Of a stretch of 24,593 bases of DNA, positions 4,591-15,090 are shown one piece after another (position 1 is the first letter of the stretch; every line of letters begins with the position of its first letter). Below the pieces are notes generated by a model. It did not search any database and was not told where the DNA came from. It worked only from the letters and a program-made list of their open reading frames with translations. Position numbers and translations under genes: made by a program. Origin of the DNA: Candidatus Schekmanbacteria bacterium (GTDB lineage Bacteria; CSSED10-310; JACPHN01); assembly GCA_016188575.1 (NCBI GenBank), contig JACPHN010000240.1, positions 1 to 24,593 on the forward strand. The letters are read 5' to 3'.

Positions 4591-6597
4591 ATGAGCGGCA
4601 TTTACGGCATGGTCCGGTTCGACCAGCGCCCCATCGACGCCGATTCCGAGGTCGGCGGCGTGCGCCGGATCATGACTCCGTGGGGACCGGATCGACGGAC
4701 AGAGCAGTCCCGGGCCGGCGTGCTCCTCGGCCATCTGCTCAGACGTATCACGCCTGAGGACGCGAGTGACCGGCAGCCCGCCACGGATCACGAGGCCGGG
4801 CTCACGCTGGTCGCTGACCTCCGGCTCGACAATCGCGAGGACCTGGCCGCCGCGCTGGACATGAGCCCTGCGGAATGCGCGGCGGCCCCCGACAGCGCGC
4901 TGTTGCTTGGCGCCTGCGTGCGGTGGGGCGAGCGCGCCTGGGAACACCTCGTTGGTGCCTGCGCCGGCGCGGTCTGGGATGCGCGGCGGCAATATCTGGT
5001 GCTGGCGCGCGACGCCATGGGCGAGCGCCCCCTGTACTATCACCTGGACGCACGCCGGATCGTATTCGCGTCAGCAGTGCGGGCGGTCCTGGCGTTCCCG
5101 GACGTGCCGCGACGCCTCAATGAGATCGTGCTGCTCGATCACCTGCTCCTCAACTGGAGTGACCCCGAGGCCACTGCACAACAGGGCATCCTGCGGCTCC
5201 CTCCGGGATGCACGCTCACCGTCTCCGCGGCGCACGGCACCGCGCAGCAGCGCTGCTACTACACCGCCTGCGGCAGCGCTCCAGAGCTCCGCCGGGCCAC
5301 TCAGGACACGTGCGTCGAGGCGCTTCGTGAGGCACTGGAGCGGGCCGTCCATCGGCGCACGCGTAGCGCCGCCGCCGTGGCGAGCCACCTCAGCGCCGGC
5401 CTCGACTCCGCCGCCGTTACGTGCGCCGCCGCCCGCCAGCTTGGCGCGCGGAACCTGCCGCTGTACGCCGTCACGCTGGGGACACCGGCGGATCAGGACG
5501 GCGTGGTGCCGCACGGGCGTTTCGCCGACGAAGCGCCGCTTGCGGCGCAGGTCGCGAATCGGCATCCGGCAATCCACCATGCGGTCTTGCCCTTCCCCGC
5601 ATCGCCGCTCCTGGAAGATCTGGCGGCGATCACCACCGGCGCGGGTGGGCTCATTCCCATTGCATACGGCTACGCTACCTATCGGGCGACGATCGAGCAT
5701 GCCGCGCGATGCTCGGCCAACGTGTTGCTCGGCGGCTTCGCCGGAAACGCGACGTTCAGCTCCGGCGGTGAGTATGGTGCAGTGTGCTACGTATATCGGG
5801 GCCTTTGGCGCACCGCTTTTGCCCTCGTACTGGGCCACGCGCGCGCGCGCCCGATGCCGTTATGGCGTAGCTTTGCGAGCCTGGTTGCCTACCAGATGAT
5901 CAAGGCCGCGGCACTGCGGCTCTCGATTTCCCTGCCGCGCGGTGGCCCGGCCGTCCACGGCCTCCGCGATGTCGTGGCGATCCGACCGGAGGTCCTGGCG
6001 CGCCACGACCTTTTTCGGCGCGCGTACCGGCGGGGCACACTGCAGTTCCTCAGTGGCGTCCACCAGGAACCCCGCGGCCGGCTCCTCGCGATGGTCAGGC
6101 GCAGCGGCTGGTGGCCGGACATGTGGTATGGCTTCAAAGCCACGCTGGGCGTCGAGGTTCGCGACCCATTGGCCGACCGCGGCCTCGTGGAGCTGTGTCT
6201 CTCCATTCCGCCTGAGCGCTTCATGGCGGGCGGCCGCTCCCGCGCCCTGGCCAGGGCGATCCTCGCCGGACAGGTCCCGGCCGAGCTCTTGGCGGATCGC
6301 CGCCGGGGGTTTCAGAGCGCCAACTGGATGGCACGTTTCCAGGCCGGCATTCCCCTCATGCTGCTACTGCTCGAGCGCTTCAAGCGGTCGCCGGCGGTCT
6401 GCGATCTTCTCGACGTGCCGAAGCTCGAAGCGCTCGTGCGCGCCTTTGTGCCGCCAGTCACCTGGGATCACCCGTTCTTCGAGCGGTATTACCTGTTCAC
6501 GCCGCTGGCGTTTCAGGTCGGGCTCCTGTTGGCACGGCAGGAGTCAGGAGGCGACCCCGTCGATGGGCTTGCTGGCAGCATCGGGAATCCCTTGTGA
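4591..6597 (+). CDS. Asparagine-synthetase-like lasso peptide cyclase (C protein)
   Basis: Predicted ATP-dependent macrolactam-forming enzyme of 668 residues: it would adenylate an Asp or Glu side chain of the precursor and join it to the core N-terminus. The start at 4591 is chosen for its AGGAG site and because the domain begins there (M-S-G-I-Y-G). Asn synthetases begin M-C-G-I. Here Ser replaces the catalytic Cys of the glutaminase half, which fits an enzyme that needs no ammonia from glutamine. The synthetase half keeps the PPi-binding loop S-A-G-L-D-S (268-273). The usual acidic G-A-D-E segment is replaced by G-G-F-A-G-N-A-T-F-S, a form I recall from proteobacterial lasso-type cyclases, and a C-terminal V-R-D-P-L-A-D-R segment also fits that group. 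It overlaps the kinase gene (GTGA). The kinase, PqqD and precursor context supports a RiPP role over amino-acid metabolism. Confidence 0.8.
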   Translation: MSGIYGMVRFDQRPIDADSEVGGVRRIMTPWGPDRRTEQSRAGVLLGHLLRRITPEDASDRQPATDHEAGLTLVADLRLDNREDLAAALDMSPAECAAAPDSALLLGACVRWGERAWEHLVGACAGAVWDARRQYLVLARDAMGERPLYYHLDARRIVFASAVRAVLAFPDVPRRLNEIVLLDHLLLNWSDPEATAQQGILRLPPGCTLTVSAAHGTAQQRCYYTACGSAPELRRATQDTCVEALREALERAVHRRTRSAAAVASHLSAGLDSAAVTCAAARQLGARNLPLYAVTLGTPADQDGVVPHGRFADEAPLAAQVANRHPAIHHAVLPFPASPLLEDLAAITTGAGGLIPIAYGYATYRATIEHAARCSANVLLGGFAGNATFSSGGEYGAVCYVYRGLWRTAFALVLGHARARPMPLWRSFASLVAYQMIKAAALRLSISLPRGGPAVHGLRDVVAIRPEVLARHDLFRRAYRRGTLQFLSGVHQEPRGRLLAMVRRSGWWPDMWYGFKATLGVEVRDPLADRGLVELCLSIPPERFMAGGRSRALARAILAGQVPAELLADRRRGFQSANWMARFQAGIPLMLLLLERFKRSPAVCDLLDVPKLEALVRAFVPPVTWDHPFFERYYLFTPLAFQVGLLLARQESGGDPVDGLAGSIGNPL

Positions 6598-7634
6598 GCG
6601 CCGTTGTCTCGCCTCATAATAGGACTGCCGTCTGTTTCCGCCCCCCCGGCGCACACACCTTGGCCACAAACCAGTACGACGCATACGGTATGAGTATCGC
6701 CACCACGGCGCGGCTGCCCCTGCGGCCGCGGGAGGGCGCCGGCACGCCGGATACCTTTATTGAAGAAGGCCCCGTGGGCGAATCCCTGGTTGGGAGCCGA
6801 ATGCGAGGGCCGCTGTTTGAAGCGGCGCCGGGTCAGCTCCTGATCCGGACGAGGCGCATCGCCAAGCTGCTGGTGTCCGAAGGGAAAGCGCTGCGCTTCG
6901 AGCGGCTTCCCGAAGCGACACCCGAGGCGGTCGCGAACCTGGTGTTGGGCTGGGGCCTGTCGGCGCTGCTGCACCAGCGCGGTGCGCTGGCTCTCCACGC
7001 GAGCGCCGTGCGCATCGGCGAGCGCGGAGCCGCGTTGTTCCTGGGCGCGGCGGGCGCCGGAAAGTCGACCCTGGCCCGCGCCTGCACGCTCAGGGGGTGG
7101 CACCTGCTCGATGACAATACGGCCGCCATCGGGTTCAGCGGGGACGGCGGCCCCGTCGTCTACCCGGGCAGCATGCAAGCAAAGCTCTGGCCCACCTTCC
7201 CGCGGCTCCTCGACGGACTCGCCTCTCGCCCGCTCGGAGGCACTCCGGAGCGGCCCAAGGTCGCCGTCGATCTCGGCCGTTCCTTTTGGCCGGCTCCCGT
7301 TCCGGTGCGGCGAATTTACCGTTTGGCCAGCGCCTCCGCAAACCAGCCTCGCGTCGAGCCCATCGAGGGGCGGAACAAGTTTCTCTTGCTGCTCAACAAC
7401 CTCGCGGCCGCTCATCTTGTGCCCGCCTGCCTCAGGAGCCTGGATTGTTTTTCCGCCATTCTTTCGACCGTGTCGCAGACGGCTATGGGCACTCTCCAGG
7501 TGCCGCGCGGCCTGCAAGGTGTTGAAGATGCCGTCGCGCTCGTCGAGCAGGAGATGGCGGTTGGCGCGCGCGGGCGAAGCAGTGATCAGGCCCGGCCGGA
7601 CTGCCGGGAAAGGGACGCGGATGGAGCTCGGTGA
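6594..7634 (+). CDS. HPr-kinase-like protein, putative lasso peptide kinase (K protein)
   Basis: 346 residues starting with GTG, overlapping the cyclase stop by 4 bases. It has a P-loop G-A-A-G-A-G-K-S-T (residues 151-159), preceded by the H-A-S-A-V strand typical of HPr kinase C-terminal domains and followed by L-L-D-D-N, equivalent to the acidic Walker B pair. There is no HPr protein or PTS gene nearby. In paeninodin-type clusters, homologues (PadeK, ThcoK, SyanK) phosphorylate the side chain of the C-terminal Ser of the lasso precursor. The precursor encoded here also ends in Ser. The start is not certain: an in-frame ATG at 6690 exists, but the Y-D-A-Y-G-M-S-I strand that begins the domain lies across it, favouring the upstream GTG. 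Assignment to precursor phosphorylation is inferred from family and context. Confidence 0.78.
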   Translation: MSAVVSPHNRTAVCFRPPGAHTLATNQYDAYGMSIATTARLPLRPREGAGTPDTFIEEGPVGESLVGSRMRGPLFEAAPGQLLIRTRRIAKLLVSEGKALRFERLPEATPEAVANLVLGWGLSALLHQRGALALHASAVRIGERGAALFLGAAGAGKSTLARACTLRGWHLLDDNTAAIGFSGDGGPVVYPGSMQAKLWPTFPRLLDGLASRPLGGTPERPKVAVDLGRSFWPAPVPVRRIYRLASASANQPRVEPIEGRNKFLLLLNNLAAAHLVPACLRSLDCFSAILSTVSQTAMGTLQVPRGLQGVEDAVALVEQEMAVGARGRSSDQARPDCRERDADGAR

Positions 7635-7902
7635 AAAGTCGAGAATCAAGCGGCGCAGCGATATCGTCTTTGGCGCGATCGAGTCCGACATCGTGATGAC
7701 CGACCTGGATGCCGGCATGTACTATTCGCTCAACGAGACGGGGGCGCGATTGTGGTCGATGATCGCGGAGCCCCTGACGCTCGGAGAGGTGTGCGACGCG
7801 CTCGCCGAAGAATACGGCGTCGACCGCTCGCGCTGCCTGCAGGAAGTCGTCCGCTTCGCCGAGGAGCTGCGCCGGCGAAGCCTGTTGGAGGTGGAGAGCT
7901 GA
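7621..7902 (+). CDS. PqqD-family RiPP recognition element (lasso B1-type leader-binding protein)
   Basis: A 93-residue stand-alone PqqD-like protein that should bind the precursor leader and present it to the processing enzymes. The ATG at 7621 lies inside the end of the kinase gene (14-base overlap) behind an AAAGGGA site. Seen: the winged-helix pattern with an 'YYSLNETGARLW' segment (about residues 34-45), then a helix with L-x-x-x-Y-G-V-D and a C-terminal helix ending S-L-L-E-V. These are the hallmarks of PqqD and lasso B1 proteins. In most lasso clusters B1 partners a transglutaminase-like B2 leader peptidase, either fused or as the next gene. Here the next gene is the precursor, and no B2 is seen. 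Confidence 0.82.
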   Translation: MELGEKSRIKRRSDIVFGAIESDIVMTDLDAGMYYSLNETGARLWSMIAEPLTLGEVCDALAEEYGVDRSRCLQEVVRFAEELRRRSLLEVES

Positions 7903-7952: not shown

Positions 7953-8093
7953 TTGGAAAAGAGAGAGGAAGCCGCCAAGCAAGAGCCGCAGAAGAAAAAG
8001 TGGACGCCACCGCGAATCGAAGACGTCTCCATGACCGCGATCACGGAGGTGAGCTTCGGCGGGTCAGGGACGGACAGCAGCATCTATAGCTGA
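7953..8093 (+). CDS. Putative lasso-type RiPP precursor peptide (46 residues, TTG start)
   Basis: A small gene opened by TTG at 7953 behind a very strong AGGAGGAG site (7940-7947), giving 46 residues that end F-G-G-S-G-T-D-S-S-I-Y-S. Its reading frame continues upstream through the PqqD gene; the ribosome site fixes the true start. The N-terminal half is charged (Glu/Lys/Gln). It is followed by W17-x-x-P20-x-I22, a match to the Y-x-x-P-x-L leader motif bound by B1 proteins, with Trp for Tyr. Thr31 fits the conserved Thr at position -2, making Val33 core residue 1 and Asp41 core residue 9. The predicted core is VSFGGSGTDSSIYS: a 9-residue ring closed on Asp9 and a 5-residue tail ending in Ser14. 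Cores starting at Ser34 (ring of 8) or Phe35 (ring of 7) are possible but lose the Thr rule. The last Ser is the expected target of the adjacent kinase. Confidence 0.72.
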   Translation: MEKREEAAKQEPQKKKWTPPRIEDVSMTAITEVSFGGSGTDSSIYS

Positions 8094-8221: not shown

Positions 8222-8270
8222 CGCCGCGGGTATTGTCGCGCCGGCGGCGAATGGGCGGTGGAATCAGGTG

Positions 8271-9521
8271 ATGCGAATCGCGGTCTGTCTGGAGCTCGGC
8301 GCGGGTCTTGGTCATCTGTGTCGCGTGGAACCTGTCGTGCGGCTCCTGCAGCGCAATCGCGCGGCCATTACCGTGGTTTCCCCGGCGGGCGCCGATAGTC
8401 GCGAAGTCCTGGGGGCTCTCGACGTCGAGCTCCGGCCCGCTCCTCCGCACGGCCCACGCGCGGAGCAGGCGGCAGCGCCATCTCACACCTACGGGCAAAA
8501 TCTCCGCAGGAACGGGTATGGCGATGAACACTGGCTTGCCGACACGTTGCGGCGCTGGGTCGCTCTCCTCGGCGAGCTCGCCCCGAGCCTGGTCGTGACC
8601 GAGCACGCGCCGGCGGCGCTCCTGGCGGCTCGCGCCCTCGACCTCCCGCGGGCCGTGCTCGGAACGGGATTTTCGCTGCCACCGGACGAGGTCCCCATGC
8701 CCGGCCTGCAACCCTGGTTCCGCGTTCCCGAATCCTATCTTCAGACCGCCGAGGCCGCCACGGTTGCCGATGTCAATCGCGGACTGACCGCGGCGGGTCT
8801 GCCACCGATCCAGGCGGTTCGCGACATCTTCGCCGGCGCCAGACGCTTTCTCTGCACCGTTCCCGAGCTCGACCATTACGGCCCGCGCCCGTCGGAACGG
8901 TACTGGGGTGTCGCCCACAGCTCGCCGTTCTCCGCGCGACCCCGCTGGCCGTCCGGCGGCCGGCCCCGCATCTTCTTCTATCTCGGCGGAGGCCACCGTC
9001 ACCTCGACGGCTTGCTCGGCGAGCTGGGCAAGCGCCGGCTCGCCGCGCTGGGGTATGTCCCGGGCCTGACCCGCCCCGATCGCCGCGCGCTCGCCCGAGA
9101 TACCGTGCGACTCGCTGCCGAGCCCATCGATTCGGCATGGGCGCCCGCAACGTGCGACTGCGTCGTTACGCATGGCGGATCCTGGAGCCAGGCCGCGCTG
9201 CTTCGCGGAAAACCGGTCCTGGCGCTGCCCCAGCAGCTCGAGCAGGCCGTCTGGAGCTACCGCGCCGGCGCCCAGGGGCTCGCCACGGTGGTGAGCATCC
9301 TCGACCGCGCCCCTGACTGGCACCGGCGCATCTCCGAGCTGACGTCCGCAGCCCTGCGCGACCGCGTCGCTGCCTTCTCTGGCCGGTACACCCAGCGCTT
9401 TCCCCACGGCTGCTGTGGCGCAGAGCTGTGCGCGGCGCTGTTACCCAAGGAGCATCCGGCGCCACGCGAGGCTCCCCAACAACTGGACGAAACCGATGAC
9501 GATATCCGAAGAAATGTTTGA
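8271..9521 (+). CDS. GT-B fold glycosyltransferase (UGT/MGT-like, GT1 type)
   Basis: A 416-residue protein with the two-domain GT-B pattern. The N-terminal Rossmann start has an L-G-x-G-L-G-H-L loop (about residues 7-16), typical of acceptor domains in macrolide-type glycosyltransferases. The C-terminal nucleotide-sugar site has T-H-G-G-S (His301) followed by L-P and a Gln-rich segment. It would move a hexose from an NDP-sugar to a small molecule or peptide. ATG 8271 (or GTG 8268) has only a weak CAGG site. The 177-bp gap after the precursor means it may have its own promoter, but it is co-directional. Its end overlaps the radical SAM gene by 26 bases. Glycosylation of the lasso peptide is inferred from position; pseudomycoidin is a known phosphorylated and hexose-bearing lasso peptide, but its enzyme is of a different type. 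A lipid or polyketide acceptor is equally possible on sequence alone. Confidence 0.8.
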   Translation: MRIAVCLELGAGLGHLCRVEPVVRLLQRNRAAITVVSPAGADSREVLGALDVELRPAPPHGPRAEQAAAPSHTYGQNLRRNGYGDEHWLADTLRRWVALLGELAPSLVVTEHAPAALLAARALDLPRAVLGTGFSLPPDEVPMPGLQPWFRVPESYLQTAEAATVADVNRGLTAAGLPPIQAVRDIFAGARRFLCTVPELDHYGPRPSERYWGVAHSSPFSARPRWPSGGRPRIFFYLGGGHRHLDGLLGELGKRRLAALGYVPGLTRPDRRALARDTVRLAAEPIDSAWAPATCDCVVTHGGSWSQAALLRGKPVLALPQQLEQAVWSYRAGAQGLATVVSILDRAPDWHRRISELTSAALRDRVAAFSGRYTQRFPHGCCGAELCAALLPKEHPAPREAPQQLDETDDDIRRNV

Positions 9522-10350
9522 GCTGGGCGGTGCGGCCCCATTCGAGGTGCGGGTGGACGCGTCCACGATCTGTCAGCTTCGCTGCCCCGTTTGCCCCAGC
9601 GCGACCGGGCAGAACCGCGACGTCATCGGGCGAGGAACCTTGAAGGCGCGCGATTTTGAGATGTTCCTAACGAACAACTCATGGATCGAGATCGTCGAGC
9701 TCGGCAACTGGGGAGAAGTGATGCTGAACAAGGGAGCTCCCGGAGATCCTGCGCATCGCCCACGATCACGGCGTGGCCACGGAGCTCGACGAAGGCGCCA
9801 ACTTCAACGACACCCCGGACGCATCCCTGGAGGCGCTCGTCCGCTACCAGGCTCGCGTCGTCCGCATCCCGATGGACGGCGCTACCAACGAGACCTACAA
9901 GATCTACCGACGCGGAGGCGACTTGAAGACGGTGATTGGCAACGCCCGCAAGCTCCTGGACATCAAACAGCGCCTTGGAAGCCCCTATCCGAAAGTCACT
10001 CTCCAGTTTGTCGTCTTCGGGCACAACGAGCACCAGATTCCTCACATCAAGATCCTCGCCAAGATCCTCGGCCTCCCCGTGAAATTCAAGCTGAGCTGGA
10101 GCTCGTCGTACTCCCCAATCCGGGACGAGGAACGAGTGCGAGCTGCAATCGGTTTTGCTGACCGCGCGGAATGGCTCGTGAGCGTTGGACGGTATTACTA
10201 CCGACATCAATGCTATCAGATGTGGTGCTCGCCGCAAGTCAATTGGGATGGAAAGTTCCTGGGTTGTACGCGCAACGTGTACCGAGCATACGACGGCAAC
10301 GTCTTCGCGAAAGACTTCATGCGTCGCTGAACGCGGCGCAATCGCGTTAG
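9496..10350 (+). pseudogene. Radical SAM (SPASM-like) enzyme, broken by two frameshifts and C-terminally short
   Basis: The first frame begins at 9496 (or at 9514) and has the 4Fe-4S motif C26-x3-C30-x2-C33 ('CQLRCPVC'), so it belongs to the radical SAM family. Around 9733, at 'aacaagggagctccc', it loses sense, and the family sequence resumes in another frame (G-V-A-T-E-L-D-E-G onward, then I-P-M-D-G-A-T-N-E-T-Y-K). One extra G in the GGG run explains this. The second frame runs through a C-terminal Cys pair region (C-Y-Q-M-W-C, G-C-T-R-N-V-Y) and stops at 10330. A third frame offers A-S-L-N-A-A-Q-S-R then stops at 10350, resembling the usual L-E-A-x-L-N end but lacking the final helix. Either a decayed gene or, for the first break, a sequencing error. 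If functional, it could modify the precursor. Confidence 0.75.
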
Positions 10351-10356
10351 GCGCGA

Positions 10357-11673
10357 TCACACAAACTCCCACCCTGCGGCATCCCGGGTCGCGGGCGCCG
10401 CCATAAGCAAGAACACGTACCCGATCCCCGCCGCACCCACCATGAAGCTCGGGTTCATCGCTCCGGTGGCGTCCCCGGACTCCCACCTGAGAAAGCCGTC
10501 GACCTCTTGACGTGCCGCCCAGGCATACCCCGCGAGCTGCTCGGCGCGCTCCCGCCAGACCTCATCGCCGGTTGCGCGGTAGAGCGCTAGCATGACCCCG
10601 GCGTTGCCCGCGTTCCCGTGACACACGCACGGGCTCCAGTGCGATCCCAAAGCCATGATTGTCTCCCCTGCCGAAATCGCCGTCTCCAGGTAGCGGGCCT
10701 CGCCGGTGAGCCGCCAGAGCTCCACGAAAAAAAGCGCGATCCCACCGGTGCCATGACACCACTGATCCTGAAATTCCGCGGTCTGATCGGGCTGTCTCCG
10801 GTACCATGACAGGTTCCCGTCGCGCCTGACGGCGATCTCCGCGAGCCATGTCGCCGCCTGTACCGCGCCCTTGCGATAGGCGAGTCCGCGATCGCCGAGC
10901 GCGCCGGCGAGCCGCGCCAGGAAATAGCCGATACCGGCAGTGCCGTGCGAAATACCGGGATAGTAATACTCCGACCCGATGGCGAGAGGCCACTTTGCTC
11001 CCGCTCCCTCGGCGACGGCGGCCGCCAGCAAGCGGTCGGCACGAGCCACCGCGGAGCGCAGCCAACGCTCGTCGCCATCGACCGCGTGCAGCTCGAGTAA
11101 GAACAGGCCCTCGCCGGCAGCCCCGCTGATCACGTCGAGGTCGGTGCTCCCTTCCGGCAGCCGCGCCGCGATCGCGCGCGCCTGATCGCGCCAGCCCTCG
11201 CCGGGAAACGCCTCATCCAGCGCCAAAAACATCCGCCCGTGGCCAGCGAGCCCGACGTGGAGCCCAGCCGGAGCGGCGCTGGTATCCACGGCGGCAGCGG
11301 CGACAAACTGCGCCCCCTCCCGGATCAAGGCGGCGAGCTCCTCCGACGGATGCTCCAGGTAGTACTTGGCGAGAAAGAAAAGGATGCCCGCTGCCCCCGT
11401 ATAGAAATCCGACGAATACCCGTACGAGACGTTCACGCCATCGAGATACTCGGCGATGAGCCACCGCGCGCCCGCACCGCTCCGCTCGGCTCGGTGCGCG
11501 ACGTCGCGCATGACCTCCGAGGCCGCCGCTCCCCAGTCGACGGGTGGCGCCACCGCAGCCGTGGCGGTGGCGTCCGGCCCCCCAGCGAACGAGCGATCCG
11601 GCGCAGCGGTGTCCGCACAGCCGACGGCGGTGCAGAGCGGAACGAGAATGACGAGCAGGCGCAATCTAGACAT
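10357..11673 (-). CDS. LanC-like lipoprotein (exported lanthionine-synthetase-C fold)
   Basis: A 438-residue protein. Start 11673 is chosen over longer in-frame starts because of the GGAGG site 7 bases upstream and because it begins a textbook lipoprotein signal (M-S-R-L-R..., lipobox A-V-G-C, Cys19). The mature part shows seven Gly-x-x-Gly helix-pair repeats of the LanC alpha-toroid (F-Y-T-G-A-A-G, V-G-L-A-G-H-G, I-S-G-A-A-G, I-S-H-G-T-A-G, W-C-H-G-T-G-G, V-C-H-G-N-A-G, M-V-G-A-A-G). All NisC active-site equivalents are present: His243, Trp305-Cys306, Cys351-His352, with the last two groups spaced almost as in NisC. LanC cyclases act in the cytoplasm on LanB/LanM-dehydrated peptides; none is seen here, and this one should sit in the periplasm. 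Its substrate is unknown. It is coupled to the M23 lipoprotein upstream by an 8-base overlap and converges on the radical SAM pseudogene. Confidence 0.85.
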   Translation of the reverse strand: MSRLRLLVILVPLCTAVGCADTAAPDRSFAGGPDATATAAVAPPVDWGAAASEVMRDVAHRAERSGAGARWLIAEYLDGVNVSYGYSSDFYTGAAGILFFLAKYYLEHPSEELAALIREGAQFVAAAAVDTSAAPAGLHVGLAGHGRMFLALDEAFPGEGWRDQARAIAARLPEGSTDLDVISGAAGEGLFLLELHAVDGDERWLRSAVARADRLLAAAVAEGAGAKWPLAIGSEYYYPGISHGTAGIGYFLARLAGALGDRGLAYRKGAVQAATWLAEIAVRRDGNLSWYRRQPDQTAEFQDQWCHGTGGIALFFVELWRLTGEARYLETAISAGETIMALGSHWSPCVCHGNAGNAGVMLALYRATGDEVWRERAEQLAGYAWAARQEVDGFLRWESGDATGAMNPSFMVGAAGIGYVFLLMAAPATRDAAGWEFV

Positions 11674-12841
11674 TTCGTACCTCCACGGTTTCACGCAGCT
11701 CGCTTTCATTTCCTGCGGCATCGACGGCAATCACGATGATGCTGTACAGACCATCTGGATAGAGCGGCACACCGTCTCTCTTTTCCTCGGTATCCCAATA
11801 AAAGTCGCGCTCCTCGACCGCCGGTTCGCCCGTGCGCCCACTTCGAGAGCGGCGCATCAGCTCGTAATACGAGAACGTCCGGTCGCCGATCGAGGGATCT
11901 CCGGGGACAACTTCGCCAGGGAACCGATAGACAGTCAGAGCGCGCTCGACGTCCGCCTCGCGGGTGGGCCCGAGGCGAATCCTCAGGGTGCCGCCGTCGA
12001 AAGCGACGCCTCGCCAGATGACTCCTGTGGCACCCGCGATCTCCACTTCGACGCGCGCCACCGCCAGGCGATCCCCGACTCCCCACACCGGGTCATGGGC
12101 GTCTGCTCCGCCATCGCGAATGCCGGCGACGACTTCGACCCTACCCGCGACCACCGTGGGTTGACCCGCGGCGAAGCGCGCGCCGCTGTCGCCGGAGAAG
12201 TATCGCAGCGGCGGGTCGAACGCCGGGGCCTCATCATCGTCGTATGTGAAGTAGGCCGTGGAGTCCAGGCTGATCAAACCATAGACATCGCTCCACGCTC
12301 CCCCTGGCGCCGGGGTCACGCGCGAAAGGTGCACGTGCTCCATGCCCTGAAAGCTGATGCTGGCGATCTGCTGTCCTTGCCGCACGCGGTCGCCGGTGCG
12401 GAACCGGAAGTTGTCGACGTGGGCGTAGGACCAGCCGAAGCCGGGCGCGGACTCGTCTTCGATGACGATGTACTTGTAATACTCCACGGCCTCGTCGAGG
12501 TGGCGCACCCGCCCTGTCTGCAGGGCGTAGATGGGAGTGCCGTTGGGAGCGAGAAAATCGATGCCATCGTGGAGGTAGGTCGTATCCGGCGTCGCGGCGC
12601 CTTGATACTGGCCAAAGGTATTCATGATCCAGGCGCTCGTGCGGATGCCGCCGTGCCCCGAGCCATCGGTGGGCCAGGGCAGCGGCGGACTCGCGTCGTC
12701 CTGGGTGGCGGAGCCGCCTGCGGGCGCACAGGCGCTGAGGGCGAGAATGAGGCAAGCAGCGAGAAGCAGGCGACCCGGGAGCGGGGAGCAGGCGGCCCCG
12801 AGGTTGAAATTGGCGTCTTGGGCTCGGAGGAAGCTAGTCAT
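11666..12841 (-). CDS. M23 (LytM-type) metallopeptidase lipoprotein
   Basis: A 391-residue predicted cell-envelope endopeptidase. The ATG at 12841 has a GAGG site. A long N-region precedes the hydrophobic stretch and a perfect lipobox L-S-A-C (near residue 38). The M23 domain has the zinc motif H91-x3-D95 (L-H-D-G-I-D), the strand P-I-Y-A-L-x-T-G-R-V, a Y-A-H-V-D segment and the second zinc motif H169-V-H171. It therefore looks catalytically competent for cleaving peptidoglycan cross-bridges or another Gly-rich peptide. From about residue 200 on is a beta-rich region ending in a Y-P-D-G-L-Y-x-I-I-V-I-A-V-D-A-A-G-N-E segment typical of an Ig-like sandwich. It overlaps the LanC-like gene by 8 bases, so the two lipoproteins are co-translated and probably act together in the periplasm. 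Confidence 0.85.
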   Translation of the reverse strand: MTSFLRAQDANFNLGAACSPLPGRLLLAACLILALSACAPAGGSATQDDASPPLPWPTDGSGHGGIRTSAWIMNTFGQYQGAATPDTTYLHDGIDFLAPNGTPIYALQTGRVRHLDEAVEYYKYIVIEDESAPGFGWSYAHVDNFRFRTGDRVRQGQQIASISFQGMEHVHLSRVTPAPGGAWSDVYGLISLDSTAYFTYDDDEAPAFDPPLRYFSGDSGARFAAGQPTVVAGRVEVVAGIRDGGADAHDPVWGVGDRLAVARVEVEIAGATGVIWRGVAFDGGTLRIRLGPTREADVERALTVYRFPGEVVPGDPSIGDRTFSYYELMRRSRSGRTGEPAVEERDFYWDTEEKRDGVPLYPDGLYSIIVIAVDAAGNESELRETVEVRNV

Positions 12842-13696: not shown

Positions 13697-13821
13697 CGAG
13701 GAGGGCAGGAGCTGTTCGCGCGGTGCGCTGGTGGATTCAGGATGAGCAGAGCACTGGCGCGAACCGCCGCCGCACACTATTGTGAAAACCGCGCGGCACG
13801 GCGGCCGTGTGGAGCGCCTTG

Positions 13822-15090
13822 ATGTTTGGAACGATCAAACCACGGTTGTGTCGTCAGGGGACAGCGAGCGCGGAGACGTACCGCGCGGCGCACTGTGGGC
13901 TCTGCAAGGCATTGGCGGTCGCCCACGGACCGCTTGCGCGGGTGCTGGCTACACACGACCTGACCACGTTGGCCGTGCTGGCGGACGCCGTGGCCGTCGT
14001 GCCCGCGGAAATGGCGACGTGCCGGTGCCCCTTGGCACCCGGGCGGCAACAGCTTGTGCTCGCCCCGTCCGCGGCGGCGATGCGCCTGGCCGCAGCGACT
14101 CAGGTGATCCTGGCGGACCTCTGGCTCGCCGACCAGGCCGCCGACCGATCGCGACTCTTCGGCGCGGCTCGGTGGCTGCTCACACGCGCGGTGCGGCGCT
14201 CCCGCGCGGCACTGCTCCGCCTCGGCTTCCGGGACGCAGCATGGGTCGCGATCACCGCGCAGCAGGCCGCGGTGGAAGGTGTCCCGGCGACCCCCGAGCG
14301 GGCGGCGGCGCCCACAGGACAGATGGTCGCGTCGCTCTTGGAGCAAGTCGGAGTCGCCGCGATCGGGACGAGATCCGCCGCGGTCTCGCCGCTGCCAGAG
14401 CAGTTTCGACGCCTCGGAGAAGCGCTCGGCCACGCCGTCTACCTCATCGACAGCATCCGCGACCTGCGCTCGGACTGCCGGCGCCGGCAGTTCAACCCTT
14501 GCCTCGAGACCGTGGCGGGGCGCACGGCCCCGTCGCCGGCGCGCTTCGACGCCACCGTGAGCGCACTGGTGACGGCAGTTGCCGGAGTTCGGGAGCAGGT
14601 CTCGGCGATCTCCTGGCCGCGGCACGGTGCTCTCGTGCGCCACTTGCTGGTCGAGCGTCTGGCGGCAGTGGCGCGGCAGAGCGAGCAGGCGACGCGCCGT
14701 TGGTTGGATGGCAATTCACCGAGCCTGGAGAACGCGGGTTTCCTGGCATGGCTTGGGGCGGCGTTCAGGTGGCTGCGCGCCCGGGTCACGGCGAAAGGCC
14801 GGGGCGACAATACTGAGGCGATGGCGAGCTCCGAGACGTCGGACTCGTCCGCGGAGCAGGAGCCGCGCCCGCGCCATGCGGAGCGCGGCGATCGCAGCTC
14901 CTGCTGCCAGTACTGCGACTGCGAGCCCTCATGTTGTGACTGGGGGTGCGGCAAGGATGGGCATTGCTGTCGGTCCACGCACGGCTGCGGGCACTGCGAC
15001 AGTTGTCACTCCTGTGACGGCGGCCACGGGTGCGACAGTTGCCACGCCTGCGATTGCGACTGCTGCGCCTGCTGCGACTGCTCCCCGTAA
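13822..15090 (+). CDS. DUF5685-family protein with Cys-rich C-terminal tail
   Basis: 422 residues; start 13822 is chosen for its GGAG site at a 7-base spacing and because the family begins M-F-G-x-I/V-x-P. Seen: H-C-G-L-C-K-A-L near residue 23 (family Y/H-C-G-L-C motif), a T-H-D-L-T-T-L-A segment, alpha-helical Ala/Arg/Leu-rich body, and G-H-A-V-Y-L-I-D-S-I-R-D-L-x-x-D near residue 210, which matches the family's Asp-rich second motif. Biochemical function is unknown to me. The striking part is the last 64 residues, with 22 Cys plus many His and Asp in C-x-C, C-C and C-D/H-x-C runs. It looks like a metal-binding tail, or a site for Fe-S or Zn loading. A Ser/Glu linker (about 330-355) separates body and tail. 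Confidence 0.75.
   Translation: MFGTIKPRLCRQGTASAETYRAAHCGLCKALAVAHGPLARVLATHDLTTLAVLADAVAVVPAEMATCRCPLAPGRQQLVLAPSAAAMRLAAATQVILADLWLADQAADRSRLFGAARWLLTRAVRRSRAALLRLGFRDAAWVAITAQQAAVEGVPATPERAAAPTGQMVASLLEQVGVAAIGTRSAAVSPLPEQFRRLGEALGHAVYLIDSIRDLRSDCRRRQFNPCLETVAGRTAPSPARFDATVSALVTAVAGVREQVSAISWPRHGALVRHLLVERLAAVARQSEQATRRWLDGNSPSLENAGFLAWLGAAFRWLRARVTAKGRGDNTEAMASSETSDSSAEQEPRPRHAERGDRSSCCQYCDCEPSCCDWGCGKDGHCCRSTHGCGHCDSCHSCDGGHGCDSCHACDCDCCACCDCSP

Follow-up and report, generated by a model that had tools for sequence, protein, structure and literature searches.

A probable short lasso peptide precursor with a TTG start in a Candidatus Schekmanbacteria genome, likely to be phosphorylated and to depend on an unlinked leader protease

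Does the short TTG-initiated frame at the end of a small operon in Candidatus Schekmanbacteria encode a lasso peptide precursor, and how would such a precursor be matured when no B2 leader protease gene is found in the window, that is, in the whole stretch of 24,593 nt that was analysed? The features on which the answer depends are these:

4591 to 6597, + strand, asparagine-synthetase-like lasso cyclase (C protein) with the ATP-binding motif LSAGLDSA; NF033535 and PF00733
6594 to 7634, + strand, HprK-related kinase with the P-loop GAAGAGKST; TIGR04352 (7.3e-10, below cut-off) and predicted fold
7621 to 7902, + strand, PqqD-type RiPP recognition element (B1), predicted leader binder; PF05402 (5.8e-19) and NF033536
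7938 to 7945, + strand, ribosome-binding site AGGAGGAG, spaced 7 nt from the TTG; sequence
7953 to 8093, + strand, predicted lasso precursor gene, 46 codons and a stop; sequence, composition, pattern scan, alignment and profile
7953 to 8048, + strand, leader peptide of 32 residues if the core starts at Val; Thr(-2) register
8001 to 8018, + strand, W-x-x-P-x-I leader recognition motif; sequence
8043 to 8045, + strand, Thr codon, residue -2 if the core starts at Val; sequence, and a nearly invariant column in a 17-precursor alignment
8049 to 8090, + strand, predicted core VSFGGSGTDSSIYS; sequence and register analysis, the other possible start at 8052 giving SFGGSGTDSSIYS
8073 to 8075, + strand, Asp codon, predicted ring-closing residue; core position 9, or 8 in the alternative register
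8088 to 8090, + strand, C-terminal Ser codon, predicted phosphorylation site; Ser endings in W- versus Y-leader precursors
8268 to 9521, + strand, GT1-like glycosyltransferase of uncertain membership, 174 nt downstream; TIGR01426 only (0.005)

The genes follow each other on one strand in the order cyclase, kinase, PqqD and precursor, and the coding sequences of the first three overlap. For the cyclase, the best model was the lasso cyclase NF033535 (285.5 bits, cut-off 525), with asparagine synthase at 155.5 and PF00733 at 9.9e-28; its alignment places a Ser at residue 2, the position at which true AsnB has its catalytic Cys. The PqqD protein was matched best by the lasso PqqD model NF033536 (1.6e-17, below cut-off), and the profile of its family matches the solved lasso B1 proteins TbiB1 (7e-25) and TfuB1 (4e-10). 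An AlphaFold2 model of the kinase, made with 14 relatives (pLDDT 85.5), has the PEPCK/HprK kinase fold, including that of L. casei HprK/P (4.3e-5), and the enzyme is predicted to act on the precursor. All three proteins miss the curated NCBI cut-offs. The sequence-only reading of this DNA had described an operon with a lasso-type cyclase and a PqqD protein, and both are indeed upstream, on the same strand and matched by family models; it did not name the HprK-like kinase among the things seen, although it expected 80 Da for a phosphate, and it did not mention that the window lacks a leader protease. The glycosyltransferase, whose family matches are weak, is possibly a further tailoring gene. 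No exporter, nucleotidyltransferase or signal-peptidase-like protease was recognised in the cluster.

Other genes of the window deserve mention in their own right. A radical-SAM gene (9500-10330, + strand, motif CQLRCPVC) is read in two frames split near 9735 and seems frameshifted, by decay or by assembly error. A LanC-like protein (10357-11730, - strand), whose N-terminus resembles a signal peptide and in which WCHG and CHGN stretches are conserved, lies outside any lanthipeptide cluster, and its gene is preceded by that of an M23 peptidase. A DUF5685 protein (13807-15090, + strand) has a long C-terminal tail rich in Cys, His and Asp.

The precursor frame itself is real as it had been described, with the 46-residue length, the TTG start and the AGGAGGAG site all in place. 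It begins 50 nt past the PqqD stop, as the final gene of the tight operon, runs from the TTG at 7953 to a stop codon at 8091-8093, and is translated as MEKREEAAKQEPQKKKWTPPRIEDVSMTAITEVSFGGSGTDSSIYS, in which the W-x-x-P-x-I motif, the Thr (at -2 given a core start at Val) and Asp9 of the sequence-only reading are found. Its GC contents at the three codon positions (0.48/0.48/0.78) are coding-like, the third-position values of the cyclase, kinase and PqqD genes being 0.79-0.86. We scanned for frames that combine a ribosome site, the leader motif, a Thr, an Asp/Glu at 7-9 and a short tail. By chance, 0.07 such patterns would be expected in a dinucleotide-resampled window, and 0.0004 in the gap of 365 bases that holds the precursor. 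The other match in the window (10136-10330) was rejected as a false positive, being the end of the radical-SAM gene. When a W-leader profile, built from the precursors of other genomes only, was searched against 1520 ORFs from seven sampled stretches of the source genome, the frame ranked second (E 0.065), behind a sister precursor on contig C160 (E 0.011) and before an ORF at E 1.4. Taken by themselves, such E-values are weak, and much of the weight for the precursor call is borne by the operon position. The precursor search of the genome gave three matches in all, each of them already in the search alignment; the frame was among these, and it stood above every other candidate of the window. 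No model of the family libraries matches it. The homologue search that had been proposed earlier, made against a set with one genome of the host class (the source genome), returned only the precursor itself above noise when it was the sole query, with no detectable sequence homologue in plasmids or phages; the sister precursors of its own genome were reached by profile and cluster scan.

The leader protease has to be sought elsewhere. In the genome, which is 93.8% complete so that a second B2 could be unassembled, the profile search found Transglut_core3 above cut-off only once, on contig C250. The protein passes the lasso B2 model NF033537 (89.9 bits, cut-off 33), retains the Cys and His that its family conserves, and is encoded among serC-, peroxiredoxin- and EF-G-like genes with no RiPP gene adjoining. 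This one B2 contrasts with at least three B2-less clusters. The cyclase profile matched the window contig (C95), C160 and C150 at 700-753 bits and C154 at 352; the next match, on C68, was rejected, since it begins MCGI and looks like an ordinary AsnB. A scan of genome contigs with the window cyclase found no relative. Contigs C150 and C160 each carry a cyclase, a kinase, a PqqD and a candidate precursor, and the C150 precursor passes the NCBI model NF033521 (lasso_leader_L3). On C154 (genome G000, L238 7918-11566), a lasso-type cyclase is accompanied by an HprK-like kinase and a sulfotransferase; no precursor and no PqqD were recognised in that cluster, which may rely on parts of the others. 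Two further observations concern this genome: a gene with an end similar to an S74-type tail-fibre chaperone lies between precursor and cyclase on C160 (L016 5177-7452), and a stand-alone PqqD on C230 (L018 8878-9231) has an FAD-linked oxidase-like gene as its neighbour and no cyclase nearby on the stretch examined.

The register of the core was approached with precursors collected from 80 PqqD loci, found with a four-sequence PqqD alignment as profile, and from class-wide and further locus searches. Counted from the leader Tyr, the Thr is at position 16 in 28 of 29 Y-leader precursors, while in W-leader precursors it is at 15 (n=15), 14 (n=8) or 16 (n=5, one being the rejected match in the window). 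In the latter group the ring acid moves with the Thr and not with the Trp (D23/24 for Thr at 14, mostly D24/25 for Thr at 15), although ring sizes and this co-movement are both partly imposed, since only precursors with an Asp/Glu 7-9 from the Thr were selected. In the 17-precursor alignment, a ring longer by one residue is common to the window and loci L023, L170 and L243, and the form with Thr(-2) and the acid at position 9 is found again in L023 and L170. At Thr+2, both leader groups have Gly more often than any other residue, but Gly is equally common at nearby positions, and the Thr(-2) register gains only mild support from this. The leader form [Y/W]xxPx[L/V/I/F/A], to which discrete lasso RREs bind (PMC13381572), is present together with Thr(-2) in the sequence and in the alignment, and an acidic residue is present at core 7-9, as Asp9 or Asp8 depending on the register. 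From the Thr positions, the spacing between acid and Thr and the alignment, a Val1-Asp9 ring appears to be the best reading. It had also been the earlier one, although the tail past a nine-residue ring comprises five residues (SSIYS) and not the three (I-Y-S) then given.

The core ends in Ser, as do 21/27 W-leader precursors versus 7/29 with a Y-leader (Fisher p 1.3e-4, relatedness ignored), and the Tyr-Ser ending recurs in the C150 precursor and in the Tistrella-like L243 precursor. PadeK phosphorylates the C-terminal Ser of paeninodin (PMC9266682); given the terminal Ser and the operon kinase, we predict phosphorylation as in paeninodin, so that the lasso peptide would probably be phosphorylated on its last residue. 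The related kinase BsfK targets Ser3 and not the C-terminus (PMC10368454), and the site here is thus only a predicted one.

Compared with known systems, the cluster is like the paeninodin type (Paenibacillus; pseudomycoidin) in its lasso cyclase, PqqD-type B1, HprK-like kinase and C-terminal Ser. It differs in having no local B2 and no recognised exporter or nucleotidyltransferase, in its core of 13-14 residues, in a Thr one residue nearer the leader motif, and in its non-Bacillota host. The WxxP leader is a further likeness, being the usual kind among lasso peptides of Bacillota (PMC13381572). The Bradymonas BsfA cluster is likewise Gram-negative and kinase-bearing with a discrete B1, but has a YxxPxL leader, Ile at -2, a Gly1-Asp8 ring, a phosphorylated Ser3 and its own BsfB2 (PMC10368454). 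The Bacillota LPP family (RRE, HprK, NTP transferase) shares the RRE, the HprK-like kinase and a [Y/W]xxP leader, but uses a signal-peptidase-like protease (PMC13381572); the window cluster has a lasso cyclase and no recognised protease of that kind. The order cyclase, HPr kinase, PqqD and a 48-aa WxxP protein is found on Tistrella mobilis pTM1 (TMO_RS20715 to TMO_RS31800), and a Tistrella-like genome (G326) has one unlinked B2, as the source genome does. The pTM1 cluster differs in that its cyclase is 34% identical, its probable core is GAAGPFLDGATVSLPPP, with neither Thr(-2) nor a Ser at the C-terminus, and genes for a sigma factor, FecR and a TonB receptor come next. Its small protein WP_187297850.1 (L019 8315-8461), annotated as hypothetical, is probably a lasso-type precursor. 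In Azospirillum, genes annotated as coding for tail fibre proteins are neighbours of the W-leader clusters L020 and L025. The operon, the syntenic Tistrella cluster and the two sister precursors, one of them passing the NCBI lasso-leader model, give good support to the class, lasso-peptide precursor, that had been proposed from the sequence.

It is likely, in our judgement, that 7953-8093 encodes a class II (no cysteine) lasso precursor and that its maturation proceeds along the following lines. The PqqD protein would bind the W-x-x-P-x-I leader, and the HprK-like kinase would phosphorylate the precursor, most likely at the C-terminal Ser. A B2 protease would then cleave after Thr-Glu; because there is none in the window, we propose for this step the single B2 of the genome, on C250, which would be common to the C150 and C160 clusters. 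The cyclase would adenylate Asp9 and link it to the new N-terminus of Val1, and the tail S-S-I-Y-S would pass through the nine-residue ring, where Tyr13 and phospho-Ser14 would be the likely plugs.

Other explanations were weighed against this scheme. It is very improbable that the frame is a chance ORF or part of a decayed cluster whose cyclase serves another precursor: the TTG start, the lack of a close homologue and the seemingly frameshifted radical-SAM gene nearby would fit such an origin, but not the coding-like composition, the chance expectation of 0.0004 in the gap, or the fact that the frame heads the candidates of the window and is among just three precursor matches genome-wide (all in the search alignment by construction). 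There is a small but real chance that cleavage falls one residue later, leaving the core SFGGSGTDSSIYS with Glu at -2 and a Ser1-Asp8 ring. Canonical leaders have YxxPxL at -17 to -12 (PMC10368454), by which Ser would be core position 1 here, and the canonical Y-leader core begins at 18 from the Tyr, two past the Thr at 16; the C150 sister precursor fits this register with Ser1-Asp8, and Ser as first residue is frequent, and a ring of 8 the commonest. Of the N-terminal residues observed in lasso peptides, G, C, S and A are given as examples and Val is not named (PMC12670498). However, W-leader precursors do not hold the canonical spacing, with the Thr at 14 or 15 in most; several of those with Thr at 14 would be left with a six-residue ring, which is too small; Thr(-2) would be lost; and in L177, L190 and L023 Thr-Glu immediately precedes a Gly core start. 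Ser1-Asp8 is therefore kept as the alternative to the preferred Val1-Asp9 ring. We regard it as distinctly unlikely that the product is a linear phosphopeptide or is cyclised but unthreaded (branched-cyclic). With so short a core, rich in Gly and Ser, the tail, five residues long with Tyr the bulkiest, may not stay threaded, and 13-14 residues is at the bottom of the 13-33 range of lasso cores (PMC13352647); against this, several family cores of 13-16 residues have the same Asp/Glu placement, and a cyclase is present.

The proposed use of the C250 protease can be set beside other genomes. One B2 each was found in G061, G063, G326, G099 and G228, against 11, 5, 9, 7 and 8 cyclase-profile matches, respectively, ratios that are upper bounds because the weaker matches may be ordinary AsnB. 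The B2 gene is on a contig without a cyclase match in G326 and G099 and far from one in G228; in G061 its neighbours, judged from the sequence alone, are a nucleotidyltransferase-like gene and an efflux system. This last genome, an uncultured Pseudomonadales chromosome of 4.3 Mb (L042), also has several candidate precursors with proline-rich leaders. A B2 was found elsewhere in eight of nine further genomes, which had been chosen for a B2-less locus, and some of these proteases may serve complete clusters. That another protease removes the leader and the C250 B2 has nothing to do with the window cluster is unlikely. It would suit the unlinked position of C250 and the case of pseudomycoidin, kinase-bearing and reported, in the title of a reference in PMC13352647, to form without leader and leader peptidase. 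Both the recurrence in distant genomes of a single B2 with several B2-less clusters and the eight genomes with a B2 elsewhere, some perhaps for complete clusters, argue for the C250 protease instead. A literature search, covering few subscription papers, found no account of lasso clusters that share an unlinked B2. On balance, we lean towards the view that this genome and several unrelated ones hold scattered cyclase-precursor modules served by one genome-wide leader protease (with kinase and leader-binding protein sometimes in common) rather than self-contained clusters, and that W-leader precursors form a subclass with Thr(-2) one or two residues nearer the recognition motif.

The window thus probably encodes a new lasso precursor of the W-leader subclass, of a known family but atypically organised, phosphorylated and dependent on an unlinked B2. 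Lasso mining usually looks for precursor, protease and cyclase side by side, and clusters with a distant protease, TTG starts and short W-leaders are easily missed. If one B2 does serve many clusters, it must be promiscuous and would be of use as a tool, and the lasso peptides of such genomes would outnumber those counted so far. The peptide itself would offer an experimental test of Val, an aliphatic residue, as the first of the ring in so short a lasso.
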